This document shows, piece by piece, positions 56,381 through 62,229 of a stretch of DNA of 64,000 nt. Source of the stretch: Cupriavidus necator N-1 (lineage in GTDB: Bacteria > Pseudomonadota > Gammaproteobacteria > Burkholderiales > Burkholderiaceae); NCBI RefSeq assembly GCF_000219215.1, contig NC_015723.1, positions 1 to 64,000 of the forward strand, read 5' to 3'. The notes beneath the pieces were generated by a model. The model did not search any database, was not told where the DNA came from, and saw only the letters and a list, made by a program, of their open reading frames with translations. Position 1 is the first letter of the stretch, and every line of letters starts with the position of its first letter. Position numbers and translations under genes: made by a program.

Positions 56381-57808
56381 ATGAATAAGACCTTACTGGC
56401 ATCGGCGATTGCGCTGGCATTTGGCGCTGGCCAAGCCTTGGCGAACCCGACCAACAACGCCGACGATAGCGGGACCACTAATACCCAAAACGCGACCGCG
56501 ACTTCCACGCAGAGCGGCAGTGGCGCCGCAGCCAACGAAAACTCGACTGCTGTGCAGGCCAATGACAGCAGCACCACCACGAAAACCAGTACCCGGACCT
56601 CAACCCGGACCAGCACAAATACCAACTCCAAGAACCGCACAGATCAGGATATGCGCGGTTATGGCAATGCGGCCGCAGCCAATGGCAGCACGGCTACCGC
56701 CAACTTCTCCAACGCGTTCAACACCAGCAAGGCGCTGGCGATCAGCAAGCTGGAGGGCTATGTATCCGGTAACACCATCGCAGCGATGGGCAACCGTGCC
56801 GGCAACTGGGGTGACGCCAATGGCGGCCTCGGTGGCAAGGGCGGCAGGGGCATTGGCGGCGTAGGCAACGGCGGCAACGGCGGCAACGGCGGCAACGGCG
56901 GCAACGGCGGTAGCGGCGGCAGCGCCACCAACGGCAGCGCCACCAACGGCGCAGCCACCAACTATGGCGCACGCGCGGGTAGCGGCGGCGACGGCGGCAA
57001 GGCGGTTGGCTGGGCTGGCGATGGCGGAAACGCCAAGTCGTATGGCGGCGACGCGCTCAGCGCGGCGGCCACCCGGGGCGGCAGCGGCGGCGACGCTATT
57101 GGCGCGGGCGGACGCGCACTGAGCGCTTCACTTGGCGCCGGCGGTCGCGGCGGCAGCGCACTCGGTGCCAGCCTTGGCCTGGGCGGCGCTGCGGGCTCGG
57201 CAGGTGGGTCCAGCGGCAACGGTGGCGCGGGTAACGACACGGTCGGCGCGGGCGGCGCAGCCGGTGCGGCGACTGCCGCCGGTTCTGCTGGCGCGGGCAC
57301 GGGGACTGGCGGTGCGGGCGGCGCCGGAACGTCGTCGGCTAGCGCAACCGGCGGTGCCGGCTCCGGTACCGGCGGCGCGGGTGGCGCAGGCGGCACAGGG
57401 ACCTCGACGGCCGCGGGTGGCGCATCCACCAGCACGGGCGGCGCTGGCGGCACGCAAGCGAGCGTTGGCGGTGCGGGCGGCGCAGGTGGTGCGGCCACGA
57501 ACGGCAGCGCTTCGAGCTCGGCGACCAACGGTAGCGCCACGGCTGGCAATGGTGCGACGGGTGCTGTCGGTGCAACCGGTGGCGCTGGCGGCGTTGGCAA
57601 CGGCGGCACCGGCAACGGTGCAGTCGGCGGCGCTGGCGGCGCAGGCGGAACTGTCGCGGTTTCTGCCGGCTCGTTCAGCCTGTCCAACGTGATGACCAGC
57701 GTCGGCCAGACCGCCGCGGGCATCATGGTCGCCAACCAGAATCTTGGTGCAGCTTCGCTGGTTCAACAGAGCGTCAACGTCCAGGCCAACCTGAGCGTCG
57801 GCCGCTAA
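56381..57808 (+). CDS. Exported glycine-rich fibre-like protein
   Basis: 475 residues. Signal peptide MNKTLLASAIALAFGAGQALA (about 1-21). A Thr/Ser/Asn/Gln-rich segment spans about 22-90 (TKTSTRTSTRTSTNTN), then a Gly/Ala/Ser/Asn domain (about 150-425) of G-G-x repeats including GNGGNGG. A different C-terminal end follows with SLSNVMTSVGQTAAGIMV and an Asn/Gln-rich VQQSVNVQANL. The segment SKLEGYVSG near 125 resembles the K-L-[DE]-x-x-x-G motif of the two following exported proteins. It is probably the main subunit of a surface fibre or amyloid. ATG with GGGAG upstream. First gene of the operon ending at 61501. Confidence 0.8.
   Translation: MNKTLLASAIALAFGAGQALANPTNNADDSGTTNTQNATATSTQSGSGAAANENSTAVQANDSSTTTKTSTRTSTRTSTNTNSKNRTDQDMRGYGNAAAANGSTATANFSNAFNTSKALAISKLEGYVSGNTIAAMGNRAGNWGDANGGLGGKGGRGIGGVGNGGNGGNGGNGGNGGSGGSATNGSATNGAATNYGARAGSGGDGGKAVGWAGDGGNAKSYGGDALSAAATRGGSGGDAIGAGGRALSASLGAGGRGGSALGASLGLGGAAGSAGGSSGNGGAGNDTVGAGGAAGAATAAGSAGAGTGTGGAGGAGTSSASATGGAGSGTGGAGGAGGTGTSTAAGGASTSTGGAGGTQASVGGAGGAGGAATNGSASSSATNGSATAGNGATGAVGATGGAGGVGNGGTGNGAVGGAGGAGGTVAVSAGSFSLSNVMTSVGQTAAGIMVANQNLGAASLVQQSVNVQANLSVGR
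56864..56908 (+). repeat. Five tandem copies of GGCAACGGC inside the glycine-rich gene
   Basis: Perfect 9-bp units encoding G-N-G, followed by one variant unit (GGTAGCGGC). In-frame copy changes would lengthen or shorten the glycine-rich domain without a frameshift. Confidence 0.9.
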
Positions 57809-58008
57809 GACGTGAGCCGGGCCGGCCGGCCAGCCATATCCAGCCTCTGGCGGATGGGCGGGCCGGTCGGTGCCGGTGCAAGTCTTCAAGCCGACGGGGG
57901 GCATCCCGGCGAGCGATTCGCGCTGGGATGCCTGCCTGGCACAACCTGTAAGTTCCGCTGCGGCTGGCTGGATGGGGCTGGGCGCGGCGGGCATGGAGGA
58001 GACGCATC

Positions 58009-58404
58009 ATGCAACCGATCCACACTGCTGTCACGGCGCTGACGGCAGCATTTCTGGCCTGGCCGTTCATGCAGGCTCAGGCAGGACCGCTGGCGGGCGA
58101 TGCCGCCGTGCCAGCGCCTGTCGCTGCGGTGGCCCCAGCGGCGAGCAATCCTTTTGGCACGGCCGCGGTAGCTGTCGCGAGCGACAAGCTTGATGACGTG
58201 CGCGGTGGTGCGGAAGTGGTTGTCAACGACATGCGGCTGCATGGCACGGTGGCGGACAACGCCGCGGTCCATACGCTGTCCGGCACCAACATGATCACGG
58301 AGGGCGCCTTCGCGAATGCTGCGGGCATCCCGACGGCCATCCAGAACTCGGGCAACAACGTGTTGATCCAGAACGCCACCATAGTCAACGTCCAGTTCAA
58401 GTGA
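58009..58404 (+). CDS. Exported small protein with D-K-L-D-D-V-R-G-G motif
   Basis: 131 residues. Signal peptide ends near 25 (FLAWPFMQAQA). A Pro/Ala/Val linker leads to SDKLDDVRGG (Gly-Gly at 66-67), then a 64-residue C-terminal part with Asn/Gln motifs (IQNSGNNVLIQN and IVNVQF). The same motif, as SEDKLDEMRGG, is in the exported protein at 59113. It resembles a double-glycine leader in a Sec-exported protein. It may be a nucleator or minor fibre subunit processed by the C39 peptidase encoded next. GGAGGAG upstream of the ATG; the stop overlaps the next start (TGATG). Confidence 0.75.
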   Translation: MQPIHTAVTALTAAFLAWPFMQAQAGPLAGDAAVPAPVAAVAPAASNPFGTAAVAVASDKLDDVRGGAEVVVNDMRLHGTVADNAAVHTLSGTNMITEGAFANAAGIPTAIQNSGNNVLIQNATIVNVQFK

Positions 58405-59102
58405 TGAAGATGCTTCAAAGACTGCTGCGGGCGCTGCCCTTTGTCCTGGCCCTGGGTGGTACCCCGCCGGCACTGGCTGACCGGATCAGCATCTACGGGC
58501 CTGTCGGCGAGTACTACAGCGTGCCGGTGACCAGCCTGCGCGAAGCACGCTTCAAGACAACGATCCGTCAGCAATACGATTTCAGCTGCGGCTCGGCCGC
58601 GGTGGCAACCCTGCTGACCTACCAGTACGGCCAACCGGTCAGCGAGGAACTGGTCTTTGCCAACATGTTCGTCAATGGCGACCAGGCCAAGATCCGGCAG
58701 GAGGGATTCTCCCTGCTGGATATGAAGCGCTATCTGGCGTCGCAGGGGTTCCTGGCCGACGGGTATGAACTGCCCCTGTCGAAGCTCGAGGAAACAAAGA
58801 TACCCGCGATCGTGCTGATCGCCGAGAACGGCTACCACCATTTCGTGGTGGTGAAAGGGGTCCGCGGCGATCGCGTGCTGATCGGCGATCCGGCGCGCGG
58901 CACGCGCTCCATCTCGCGCGAACACTTCGAGAGCATCTGGGAAAGCCAGTTGCTGTTCGTGATCCATAACCGGACCGAGCAGGCCCGGTTCAACCTGGCG
59001 GCCGACTGGCGCGTAGCGCCATCGGGCCCTTACTGGATGGGAGTCAACCGGGACAGCCTGTTCTTCACCGTCATGCCAAAGCATGGCGCCAGCGATTTCT
59101 GA
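58404..59102 (+). CDS. Periplasmic C39-family cysteine peptidase (FapD-like)
   Basis: 232 residues. A signal peptide runs to about residue 25 (PALA). The C39 fold has the oxyanion Gln and catalytic Cys in RQQYDFSCGSAAVATLL near 53-68, the catalytic His in YHHFVVVKG near 148 and the Asp in LIGDPARGTRSI near 161, so the triad is complete. It lacks the ABC transporter domains of bacteriocin exporters and so resembles FapD of the Fap amyloid system. In C39 enzymes the cut is after Gly-Gly, and both neighbouring exported proteins contain R-G-G. ATG at 58404 overlaps the previous stop; GTG at 58401 is an alternative. Confidence 0.88.
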   Translation: MKMLQRLLRALPFVLALGGTPPALADRISIYGPVGEYYSVPVTSLREARFKTTIRQQYDFSCGSAAVATLLTYQYGQPVSEELVFANMFVNGDQAKIRQEGFSLLDMKRYLASQGFLADGYELPLSKLEETKIPAIVLIAENGYHHFVVVKGVRGDRVLIGDPARGTRSISREHFESIWESQLLFVIHNRTEQARFNLAADWRVAPSGPYWMGVNRDSLFFTVMPKHGASDF

Positions 59103-59112
59103 GGAACACATC

Positions 59113-59976
59113 ATGTTCGAGACATCCGCCCCGAATACCACCGCTTGCCGCAGCAGGGGAGCCGGTACGGCGACTGCAGCGGTCCTGTTCGGCGCCGGCA
59201 TGGCATGTGCCACCGCCGCGCAGGCGAGCGAGCAGCCGCTGCCGGACGCCCTTGACGCGGCCGCGGTTCCTGCACAGACTGTATTGGACACGCAAGAGAA
59301 CAAGCAAGACCAAACACTGGCTGCCGCTACCCAGGGCAGCATGGCCGGCTGGAAACCGGTCTCGGAAGACAAGCTGGATGAAATGCGCGGCGGCTTCGAC
59401 GCCGGCGGACTGCAGGTTTCGTTCGGAATCGAACGCGCGGTGTACGTCAATGGCGCCCTGGTGGTGGCCACCAGCATTAACATACCGGACATTGCGCGCA
59501 TCACCAGCGACCAGGCCGCGAAGCTGGCTTCTGCGCTTGCGCCGGCCATTGTGAGCAATACGTATGCTGACGTGAACAGCGCGATGGCGGGCAACCCGGC
59601 CACGGCGGGCGTTCAGCTAGGCAGCAATGGCAGCAGCAGCGCAGGTGCCGCGGGAACGGCCACGGCGGTGGCATCGAACGGAGCATCGGCAAGCAGCGCC
59701 GGTGCGGCCGGCCTGCCGTCAACCGCGGTGACAACGCCAACCGGCCAGGTCGTTACCAACGGGCTGCTGGCGGTAATCCAGAACGGCGCGGGCAATTCCG
59801 CGGCGGTGGCCAATGGGACGTCGCCGATGACCGTAATCCAGAACACCTTGAACAATCAGAGTATCCGGAGCCTGATGACAATCGACACGAGTGTGAATAC
59901 GCTCCAGGCATTCCGGTCACAGGTCGCCAACGCAACGCTGAACAACGTGCTGCTGCGAGCCGCCAGCATGAGGTAG
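59113..59976 (+). CDS. Exported protein with D-K-L-D-E-M-R-G-G motif (fibre component candidate)
   Basis: 287 residues. Hydrophobic signal segment near 17-36 ending ATAAQA. A polar linker leads to SEDKLDEMRGG (Gly-Gly at 93-94), then LQVSFGIERAVYVNGALVVATSINIP. A Ala/Ser/Gly/Asn low-complexity stretch (about 170-205) follows. The Asn/Gln-containing end (VIQNGAGNSAAVANG, then VIQNTLNNQSI) matches the style of the C-terminus of the 58009 protein. It stands where FapE stands in Fap operons. Likely peptidase substrate and minor fibre subunit. GAGGAAC precedes the ATG. Confidence 0.75.
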   Translation: MFETSAPNTTACRSRGAGTATAAVLFGAGMACATAAQASEQPLPDALDAAAVPAQTVLDTQENKQDQTLAAATQGSMAGWKPVSEDKLDEMRGGFDAGGLQVSFGIERAVYVNGALVVATSINIPDIARITSDQAAKLASALAPAIVSNTYADVNSAMAGNPATAGVQLGSNGSSSAGAAGTATAVASNGASASSAGAAGLPSTAVTTPTGQVVTNGLLAVIQNGAGNSAAVANGTSPMTVIQNTLNNQSIRSLMTIDTSVNTLQAFRSQVANATLNNVLLRAASMR

Positions 59977-60061
59977 GAGTAGCCGTAACCGTAGCTTTGA
60001 TGCGCAGGAGGTAGCGCGCGCCTGCAAGGTCCAGTCTGCCGTCCCGGGGGAGGAAGACGTC

Positions 60062-61501
60062 ATGAAGAAGCGGTCGATGCAGGGCATCCGCAGCGCGGGG
60101 TGCTCGACGTTGCTGTTGCTTGGAGGCCTGGCGCACGCCCAGACCACACTCGACGCGGGGCCACCCGCCGCCGGGCTGGAGTCCTTGCAGAACCAGCTGG
60201 CCGAGCAGGCCAGCCAGCTCGACGCCATGAAGCGCGCGCTCGCTGAGCAGGAAGCGTTGATCCGTGAGCTGCGCAGCGTGATCGGGCCGGAGGTGCTGTC
60301 CCGCAAGCGCGGCGGCGCCGGGCCCGGCGTCACGCCGATGGATAACGCCACCAACGCCGCGGCCGCCGCGGCCGGCGCCAGCGCAACGCAGGGCGTGCCC
60401 AACGCGGTCACGTCGCCGCAGGCGACCCAGGGTGACCAGCCGCCGCAGATGGTGGTGCAGCCGGGGCAGCCGCAGCAGGGCGAGTCGACGTACCAGCAGG
60501 TGGTCGCGGACGAGCCCGTGGGCAAGCCGCCCGAGCGCGATACGCGCCCGCCCGAAATCGCGCCGATCACGGAACAGCCGGGCGTGCTGACGGCGCAGGG
60601 CAAGCTCGTGATCGAGCCCGGCTTCCAGTACGGCTATTCGTCGAACAACCGCGTGGCGCTGGTCGGCTATTCGATCATCCCGGCCCTCCTCATCGGCCTG
60701 ATCGATGTGCGTGAGGTCAAGACCTCGACTTACATCCCATCGGTTGCGTTCCGCTACGGCATCACCAAGCGGCTGGAGATCGAAGCCAAGGTACCCTATG
60801 TGCATAGCTCCGGTTCCACCGTCAGCCGCGAAGTGTTCACCGGTACCGCAGTCGACCGCGTGTTCAATGCCAGCGGCAGCGGCATTGGCGATGTCGAGGC
60901 GACGGTGCGCTACCAGCTCAACTATGGCAGCGAGAAGCTCCCCTACTTCATCGGCTGGCTGCGCTACAAGTCGAATACCGGCAAGGACCCGTTTGAAGTC
61001 GTCACCGACTGCGTGACGCGCTGCGTGGGCAATGCCACCGGCACCGGGTTGCCGCTGGGGCTGCCAACCGGCACCGGCTTCCAGGCGATCCAGCCCGGCG
61101 TCACCTGGCTGCTGCCGACCGATCCGGCCGTGTTCTTCGGCACCTTCAGCTATCTGCACAACTTCGCGCGCGACAACGTGAGCCGCACCGTGCTGAACGG
61201 CGAGAAGGAACCGCTGGGCAAGATCGCGCCGGGGGACATCTTCGAGTTCAGTTTCGGCATGGGCCTGGCGCTGAACGAGCGCGCCTCGTTCAGTATTGGC
61301 TATGACCAGAGCATCATCTGGCCCACCAAGCAGAACGGCCAGACCGTGCCGGGTTCGGTGCGCGTGACGCAGGGCACCCTGCTGGTGGGCTACTCGTACC
61401 GCTTCAGCAACCGCTACACTCTGAACCTTTCAGTGGGTGCGGGGCTGACGCGCGACACCCCCGACCTGCAGGTAAATGTGCGCCTGCCGATCACTTTCTG
61501 A
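60062..61501 (+). CDS. Outer-membrane beta-barrel with N-terminal coiled coil (FapF-like exporter)
   Basis: 479 residues. Signal peptide ends near 27 (GGLAHA). A coiled coil of about 40 residues follows (LQNQLAEQASQLDAMKRALAEQEALI), then a Pro/Gln/Ala-rich linker, and from about 185 a beta-barrel with alternating strands that ends in LQVNVRLPITF, with terminal Phe as in outer-membrane proteins. Coiled coil, linker and C-terminal barrel match the layout of FapF, the amyloid secretion channel; the barrel resembles the Phenol_MetA_deg family. Probably exports the glycine-rich and GG-motif proteins. ATG with GGGAGGA. Last gene before a palindromic terminator. Confidence 0.8.
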   Translation: MKKRSMQGIRSAGCSTLLLLGGLAHAQTTLDAGPPAAGLESLQNQLAEQASQLDAMKRALAEQEALIRELRSVIGPEVLSRKRGGAGPGVTPMDNATNAAAAAAGASATQGVPNAVTSPQATQGDQPPQMVVQPGQPQQGESTYQQVVADEPVGKPPERDTRPPEIAPITEQPGVLTAQGKLVIEPGFQYGYSSNNRVALVGYSIIPALLIGLIDVREVKTSTYIPSVAFRYGITKRLEIEAKVPYVHSSGSTVSREVFTGTAVDRVFNASGSGIGDVEATVRYQLNYGSEKLPYFIGWLRYKSNTGKDPFEVVTDCVTRCVGNATGTGLPLGLPTGTGFQAIQPGVTWLLPTDPAVFFGTFSYLHNFARDNVSRTVLNGEKEPLGKIAPGDIFEFSFGMGLALNERASFSIGYDQSIIWPTKQNGQTVPGSVRVTQGTLLVGYSYRFSNRYTLNLSVGAGLTRDTPDLQVNVRLPITF

Positions 61502-61716: not shown

Positions 61717-62229
61717 ATGCGCAAACGCATCTTCTGGTTGTTGCCCGACCTGGCGAGTGCCCGTCGCACCATGGACGACCTGCTACTTGCCCGCCTCGAG
61801 AACAGCCACATCCACTTCGTGGCGCGCGACGGCTCCGACATGACGGGCCTGCATGAAGCCAACCTGTTCCAGACCTCCGACATCGTGCATGCCGCCGAGA
61901 TGGGCCTGATGGTGGGCGGCGGCGTGGGCGTCGTGGCCGGCGTGGTGGTGGCGATGTTCCCGATTGTCAGCGACACCCCGCAGTGGGGCCTCGTCGGCGT
62001 GCTGGCGGTGCTGGGCGCGGTATTTGGCGCATGGGCCTCGAGCATGATTGGCAGCTCGGCACCCAACAGCCGGCTGCGTGCATTCGAGAAGGACATCGAG
62101 GCCGGCAAGATCCTGCTGATGGTCGACGTTCCGCGCAGCCGTGTCGAGGAAATCGAAACCCTGCTCGCGAACGCGCATCCGGAAGCCAGCTTTGCGGGGT
62201 TGGACCCGGCTGTACCGGCTTTCCCCTGA
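61717..62229 (+). CDS. DUF1269-family membrane protein
   Basis: 170 residues. It has RIFWLLPDLASARRTMDDLLLARL at the start, a Gly/Val-rich hydrophobic pair of segments (about 66-115: LMVGGGVGVVAGVVVAMFP, then WGLVGVLAVLGAVFGAWASSMIG) and a polar end with AGKILLMVDVPRSRVEEIE. This matches the DUF1269 family of small membrane proteins of unknown function. AAGGAG precedes the ATG at 61717; the earlier open frame lacks support. Single gene with its own hairpin downstream. Confidence 0.88.
   Translation: MRKRIFWLLPDLASARRTMDDLLLARLENSHIHFVARDGSDMTGLHEANLFQTSDIVHAAEMGLMVGGGVGVVAGVVVAMFPIVSDTPQWGLVGVLAVLGAVFGAWASSMIGSSAPNSRLRAFEKDIEAGKILLMVDVPRSRVEEIETLLANAHPEASFAGLDPAVPAFP

Follow-up and report, generated by a model that had tools for sequence, protein, structure and literature searches.

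We analyzed a 64,000-nucleotide stretch of DNA from Cupriavidus necator N-1 (hereafter the window), in which five + strand open reading frames (ORFs) at 56381-61501 encode a glycine-rich exported protein, an exported protein of 131 amino acids (aa) designated e131, a C39 peptidase, an exported protein of 287 aa, and an outer-membrane barrel protein (Table 1). An earlier interpretation made without database searches (the sequence-only reading) had listed these genes in this order and proposed that they constitute a diverged fiber secretion system related to Fap (fapABCDEF), and the ORFs themselves were confirmed at this place and on this strand. Signal peptides and start codons were assigned by a crude script rather than a published predictor, and the lengths reported here depend on these assignments. 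The sequences counted below are related to one another and hence not independent.

A Fap-like gene cluster with a periplasmic C39 peptidase

The window peptidase matches the Pfam C39 family (PF03412, 87 bits), with only a weaker C70 match besides, and its N-terminus is signal-peptide-like by a crude score. It scores 145.8 bits against the NCBIfam FapD model NF058616, below the 330-bit cut-off; this cut-off is strict, because the FapD of a canonical-type Aeromonas caviae locus also remains below it (249.1 bits). In a phylogenetic tree built by maximum likelihood from 99 C39 proteins, the window peptidase falls outside the canonical FapD clade and within a group of 63 rows (clade A; support 100/99) that is sister to 22 canonical Fap rows (support 100/92), and the other free-standing C39 proteins fall outside both. 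Residues Gln56, Cys62, His146 and Asp162 are invariant in all 63 clade A and all 22 canonical sequences aligned. The proposal of a FapD-like peptidase with a complete Gln/Cys/His/Asp set is borne out. Clade-specific positions were sought in the alignment, and none could be mapped to a pocket. The nearest named homologs are from Cupriavidus, and the only other match of the window peptidase in its own genome (8.48 Mb, four contigs) is a C39 stretch inside a 1045-codon open frame. At three loci, L220 (Vibrio plasmid), L236 and L237 (Photobacterium GJ3, Acidithiobacillus plasmid), the C39 gene appears to be in two pieces, possibly through decay or sequencing errors.

The resemblance of the barrel protein to FapF, also part of the sequence-only reading, is upheld by a match to PDB 5o67 (FapF; E 5.7e-29) and a profile comparison probability of 100; the FapF model has a single match in this genome, at this locus. 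Against NF058560 the protein scores 142.9 bits, below the cut-off of 700, as does an Aeromonas protein (371.2 bits). A heptad-like stretch, delimited by eye at approximately residues 37-73, is followed by a linker. Judged by profile comparison, the 287-aa protein is the probable counterpart of FapE: the FapE-like family matches canonical FapE with a probability of 92 (E 7.5e-7) over 36 columns centered on the site described below, and the mature parts alone give no match (E 0.02). The FapE model NF058559 gave no match at E ≤1, the NCBIfam models of FapB and FapC had zero matches among the window proteins at E ≤1, and neither NCBIfam (E ≤1) nor Pfam (at cut-off) yielded a match for e131, the 287-aa protein or the glycine-rich protein. 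Many NCBI homologs of the 287-aa protein are named 'flagellin', an apparent misannotation; the window protein itself has no Pfam or NCBIfam family.

The glycine-rich protein consists of a conserved N-terminal part, a Gly/Ala-rich middle and a Fap-repeat-like C-terminus. This C-terminus matches the mature part of e131 (profile probability 96) and, weakly, canonical FapB (38), with no match to FapC; mature e131 in turn matches the canonical FapB set (75) and gives no match to the FapC set (0.3). The gene of the glycine-rich protein is followed by a structured intergenic RNA. All 16 intergenic regions hand-picked for folding, that of the window included, are unusually stable (z -2.3 to -6.1), and such very stable hairpins between the glycine-rich gene and e131 suggest differential expression of the subunit gene.

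Table 1. Features of the operon, with coordinates in the window
Feature	Coordinates	Strand	Remarks
Gly-rich exported protein, 475 aa	56381..57808	+	Probable major surface/fiber subunit; without visible double-glycine site
Intergenic RNA, strongly structured	57806..58008	+	Folding z -6.0; possible attenuator or mRNA stabilizer
e131, exported, 131 aa	58009..58404	+	Signal peptide, variable spacer, leader site, 64-aa part with Fap-repeat-like segment
Double-glycine-type leader site VASDKLDDVRGG of e131, residues 56-67	58174..58209	+	Leader-code fit
Periplasmic C39 peptidase, 232 aa, sister of FapD	58404..59102	+	Gln56, Cys62, His146, Asp162
FapE-like exported protein, 287 aa	59113..59976	+	Profile comparison; position after C39 gene
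Double-glycine-type leader site VSEDKLDEMRGG of FapE-like protein, residues 83-94	59359..59394	+	Trp80 at -15
FapF-like outer-membrane barrel protein, 479 aa	60062..61501	+	Long N-terminal periplasmic part; FapF match at residues 167-478
Leader-like site IGPEVLSRKRGG of FapF-like protein, residues 74-85	60281..60316	+	Between heptad-like stretch and linker

Double-glycine-type sites in the exported proteins

The leader code of C39 peptidases, as given in the available part of PMC10885120, comprises hydrophobic residues at positions -12, -7 and -4, with cleavage after GG, GA or GS, and ComA additionally has Phe at -15. The motifs SDKLDDVRGG in e131 and SEDKLDEMRGG in the FapE-like protein, to which the sequence-only reading had drawn attention, were located as VASDKLDDVRGG, ending at residue 67, and VSEDKLDEMRGG, ending at residue 94. 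The other signal-peptide-like ORFs of the loci analyzed (spurious ORFs included) total 342,419 residues and contain 8 instances of a pattern with a hydrophobic residue at -12, Leu or Met at -7 and a terminal RGG; approximately 0.01 occurrences would therefore be expected by chance in the two proteins together.

Conservation of the site was followed in ORFs that were chosen by their position flanking each peptidase gene. In clade A, the ORF after the peptidase contains [LM]xxxRGG[F/I/L] in 63/63 cases. Among the named loci, which are the best 80 among the matches listed and not a random sample, RGG is present within the first downstream ORFs in 79 (77 by script, L202 among the loci missed by the script and L206 by a frame scan), the one exception being a contig that stops short of this region. 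Some loci belong to both sets, and the distinct contexts number 132. A larger set of 141 FapE-like proteins was selected by motif, such that GG (141 proteins) and Leu or Met at -7 are given and the residues at -12 and -4 are not; 117 of these fit the hydrophobic requirement at -12, -7 and -4 together. The tryptophan at -15 is invariant among 42 aligned FapE-like sequences, and the stretch preceding the site varies from 39 to 685 aa. At the same place in canonical loci, RG[KR] or TGK is found in 23/23 cases (22 tree rows and L099), a comparison set that holds no Pseudomonas FapE sequences.

The e131 site is more variable. Among clade A loci, 62 of 63 e131-type ORFs preceding the peptidase match L-x-x-x-[RS]-[GA], as the search pattern required, and RGG or RGA is present in 47 of these and absent from 15. 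In the named set (n=80), the site ends in GG in 77 cases, GA in 2 and AG in 1, and in 12 of the 77 ending in GG, from Dyella, Luteibacter and relatives, the Arg at -3 is replaced by Ser, Thr or Cys. All three of positions -12, -7 and -4 are hydrophobic in 60 of the 127 members of a motif-selected e131 set. The part following the site measures 63-70 aa in 125 of these 127, compared with 39-167 aa before it, and this fixed length argues that the e131 site is in use. A search of the C. necator genome for further e131 homologs returned weak matches only (best E 0.008), and e131 and the FapE-like proteins may be paralogs.

A third site, overlooked in the sequence-only reading, is present in the barrel protein, where IGPEVLSRKRGG ends at residue 85. 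RG occurs in the linker region of 50 of the 63 clade A barrels, 47 of them with Leu at -7 (the tie-break of the script favored Leu); in 55 of 76 barrels of the named set, where 43 have Leu or Met at -7 (residues that the script preferred); and in 14 of 21 barrels of canonical loci. Thus, FapE-like proteins have an invariant site, e131 proteins have one that is nearly invariant near the window and degenerate farther off, and in the channel the site is optional. The sequence-only reading would have counted against itself any homologs that lack the motif while the peptidase gene is kept. No such case was found for the FapE-like protein, and the outcome for e131 is divided, given the 15 clade A proteins without an exact RGG or RGA. 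Information content rises at the site, and R-G-G is likely to be a processing site used after Sec export, as had been predicted from the sequence, because it is conserved and fits the published double-glycine leader code.

In the glycine-rich protein, SKLEGYVSG had been suggested as a weak version of the same motif. This candidate was rejected: its -2 position is occupied by Ser instead of Gly, L[ED]GxVSG is found in only 4 of 58 loci, and by eye the segment is closer to LHGTVADN, which follows the e131 site.

Distribution of the operon and of other free-standing C39 genes

When the window genes were used to search 45 loci (L035-L039, L055-L094), matches of the e131, C39, 287-aa and barrel types were obtained in 45/45, and the glycine-rich match was absent from 6 at the search threshold. 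In 25 of the 45 loci, the barrel gene lies in inverted orientation. In the window, the barrel gene is followed by a probable membrane-protein gene at 61717-62229, and a close counterpart of this gene likewise lies downstream of the Cupriavidus metallidurans CH34 operon (L217). The best 80 named loci belong mostly to Burkholderiales and Xanthomonadales, and similar operons, known outside the tree only, are present on plasmid records of Alphaproteobacteria (Croceicoccus, Polymorphobacter) and Vibrionaceae; these plasmid loci were hand-picked among the matches, 5 at first and then 8 more. With score bands read off the match list, 50 of 200 Burkholderiaceae genomes have the sister type, 64 fall in the canonical band and 21 have both. 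Twelve canonical-band loci were placed on the tree, and 6 of the 21 genomes are represented there by both loci. On account of these 21 genomes, a mere replacement of canonical Fap by the sister operon was rejected.

It is possible, and we put it forward tentatively, that a general 'second signal' pathway exists around free-standing periplasmic C39 peptidases, in which Sec export would be followed by periplasmic cleavage of a bacteriocin-type leader located behind the signal peptide and then by passage to a FapF- or FilC-type barrel. Beyond the two Fap clades, 15 distant C39 genes were considered: of the 70 signal-peptide-like ORFs near them on the same strand, 16 bear a strict pattern shortly after the signal peptide, compared with 10 of 1065 opposite-strand ORFs across all loci. 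Leader-like sites such as LTEAQMDQVSAG, LSDADMDGVTAG and LNDTGLEQATGQ occur immediately behind the signal peptide in Sec-type proteins beside other free-standing C39 genes (L126, L128, L132, L134, L125, L127), and at L232, L233 and L234 (Acinetobacter plasmids and a Deinococcus plasmid) a free-standing C39 gene lies beside genes for exported leader-bearing proteins. The Acinetobacter plasmid proteins carry LSNQEMKDTQGA and LSRQEMKDTQGA; the Deinococcus site LSDAELDEVKGE and the Tistrella site LTEEERKNITGA were assigned by eye only. Several observations weigh against so general a pathway: 7 of the 15 distant loci have no ORF bearing the strict pattern, and a somewhat broader pattern, applied to 8 hand-picked named loci, returned plausible sites in 4, two of them Fap-like operons, along with two further matches that looked spurious. 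Five leader-bearing small proteins of distant loci gave no family above cut-off in NCBIfam and Pfam scans.

A related site is also present in 11 of 12 canonical FapA-like ORFs (L042, L043, L046-L051, L095, L096, L101), for example LDDQTLSRQRGG, upstream of a V[TI]LWDE segment, whereas peptide coverage suggested that FapA-D are unprocessed, according to the portion of PMC5557850 available.

Candidate processing and relation to known systems

Taken together, these sequence comparisons make it likely that the operon encodes a sister system of Fap, in which a periplasmic C39 peptidase cuts e131 and the FapE-like protein after GG and so licenses their export or assembly at a FapF-like channel. All five proteins would cross the inner membrane by the Sec pathway, as their signal-peptide-like N-termini suggest. 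The free-standing peptidase would then recognize a short leader, with hydrophobic residues at (-15), -12, -7 and -4 and a GG end, that in both proteins follows a variable spacer and precedes the mature part. Cleavage after GG would free the mature FapE-like protein, whose first residue in the window is Phe, and a 64-residue e131 bearing the Fap-repeat-like segment. Once the prodomain is removed, both could be licensed to pass through the channel or to assemble at it, and e131 and the glycine-rich protein may form or anchor a surface fiber there. The same site follows the presumed coiled coil of the channel in many family members, so that the peptidase may trim the channel as well. The original idea of a diverged fiber secretion system is thereby retained for the peptidase, the channel and the FapE-like protein, and abandoned for the weak motif of the glycine-rich protein.

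Alternatively, the sites might be real and yet only the FapE-like protein cut, with the e131 and channel motifs representing inherited remnants or lookalikes. Invariance is indeed limited to the FapE-like site, with degenerate e131 motifs in distant loci and none in many channels, but we consider this explanation unlikely, given that GG ends the site in 77 of 80 named e131 proteins, including 12 with a substituted -3 position, and that the length after the e131 site is fixed. The motif might instead remain uncut and serve as a signal for docking at, or targeting to, the peptidase or the channel, with the C39 protein acting as a chaperone. Inactive C39-like domains are said to be substrate chaperones in some type I systems (in the available part of PMC5557850), and the Lys or Arg at -1 in 23/23 canonical FapE proteins is unusual for a double-glycine cut; we nonetheless judge such a role improbable. 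That the locus matures a peptide or bacteriocin and has nothing to do with fibers, as the leader code common to bacteriocin and lanthipeptide exporters might suggest, is very hard to reconcile with five proteins lacking an ABC transporter, their Sec-type N-termini, the FapF-like channel and the Fap-repeat-like segments.

Processing by the C39 peptidase would bear on an existing question about Fap. As far as the available parts of these sources go, FapD is periplasmic, its C38A variant blocks secretion, its activity is needed for FapC secretion in the assay used, and its target is unclear (PMC5557850, 2017); the same study describes Fap proteins as lacking canonical C39 sequences and reports no N-terminal peptides for FapE. 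A 2018 review gives the FapD substrate as undetermined and places fapD and fapF together in five more phyla, with operons counted only where at least 4 fap homologs were present (PMC6173800). FapD and FapF are described as members of larger families (PMC3792158), and, according to a 2025 review, FapE and FapF are believed to undergo processing (PMC12822426), so that processing of these two proteins is an existing idea. The exact FapD signal, its conservation and the sister operon were not found in the literature searched, mostly consisting of records other than full texts, and no title or abstract beginning from searches on Fil genes and periplasmic double-glycine processing defines a FapD site. 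The sister clade would offer a readable version of a signal that is found in altered form (RG or TG followed by Lys or Arg) at the same place in canonical FapE, and the candidate FapD cleavage site is now exact and testable in a biofilm system. The operon itself represents a second, widespread Fap-like operon that was likely left out by the criterion of at least 4 fap homologs per locus.

Among known systems, the putative Fil pilus system (FilB/FilC, NCBIfam) shares a C39 peptidase and a barrel protein with the window; however, the window C39 protein scores 127.3 bits against a FilB cut-off of 475 and the barrel 37.4 against a FilC cut-off of 630, and the other Fil models gave no match to the five window proteins at E ≤1. 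The double-glycine peptidases of bacteriocin and lanthipeptide systems (PCAT1, LahT, ComA) have the peptidase fold, catalytic residues and leader code in common with the window enzyme, which differs in being free-standing, Sec-type and periplasmic, without an ABC transporter, and in having its leader placed after a signal peptide and spacer. Unlike the peptidases of PCAT type I secretion, the 232-aa protein is not fused to an ABC transporter. With Fap, the operon shares a periplasmic C39 peptidase, a FapE-like protein encoded directly after it, a FapF-like channel, Fap-repeat-like segments and the location of the leader site within FapE. In contrast to Fap, its peptidase belongs to a separate sister clade, no FapA was seen in the window, the glycine-rich protein and e131 replace the multi-repeat FapB and FapC, and the site ends in GG rather than the canonical GK or GR; one genome can hold both systems.

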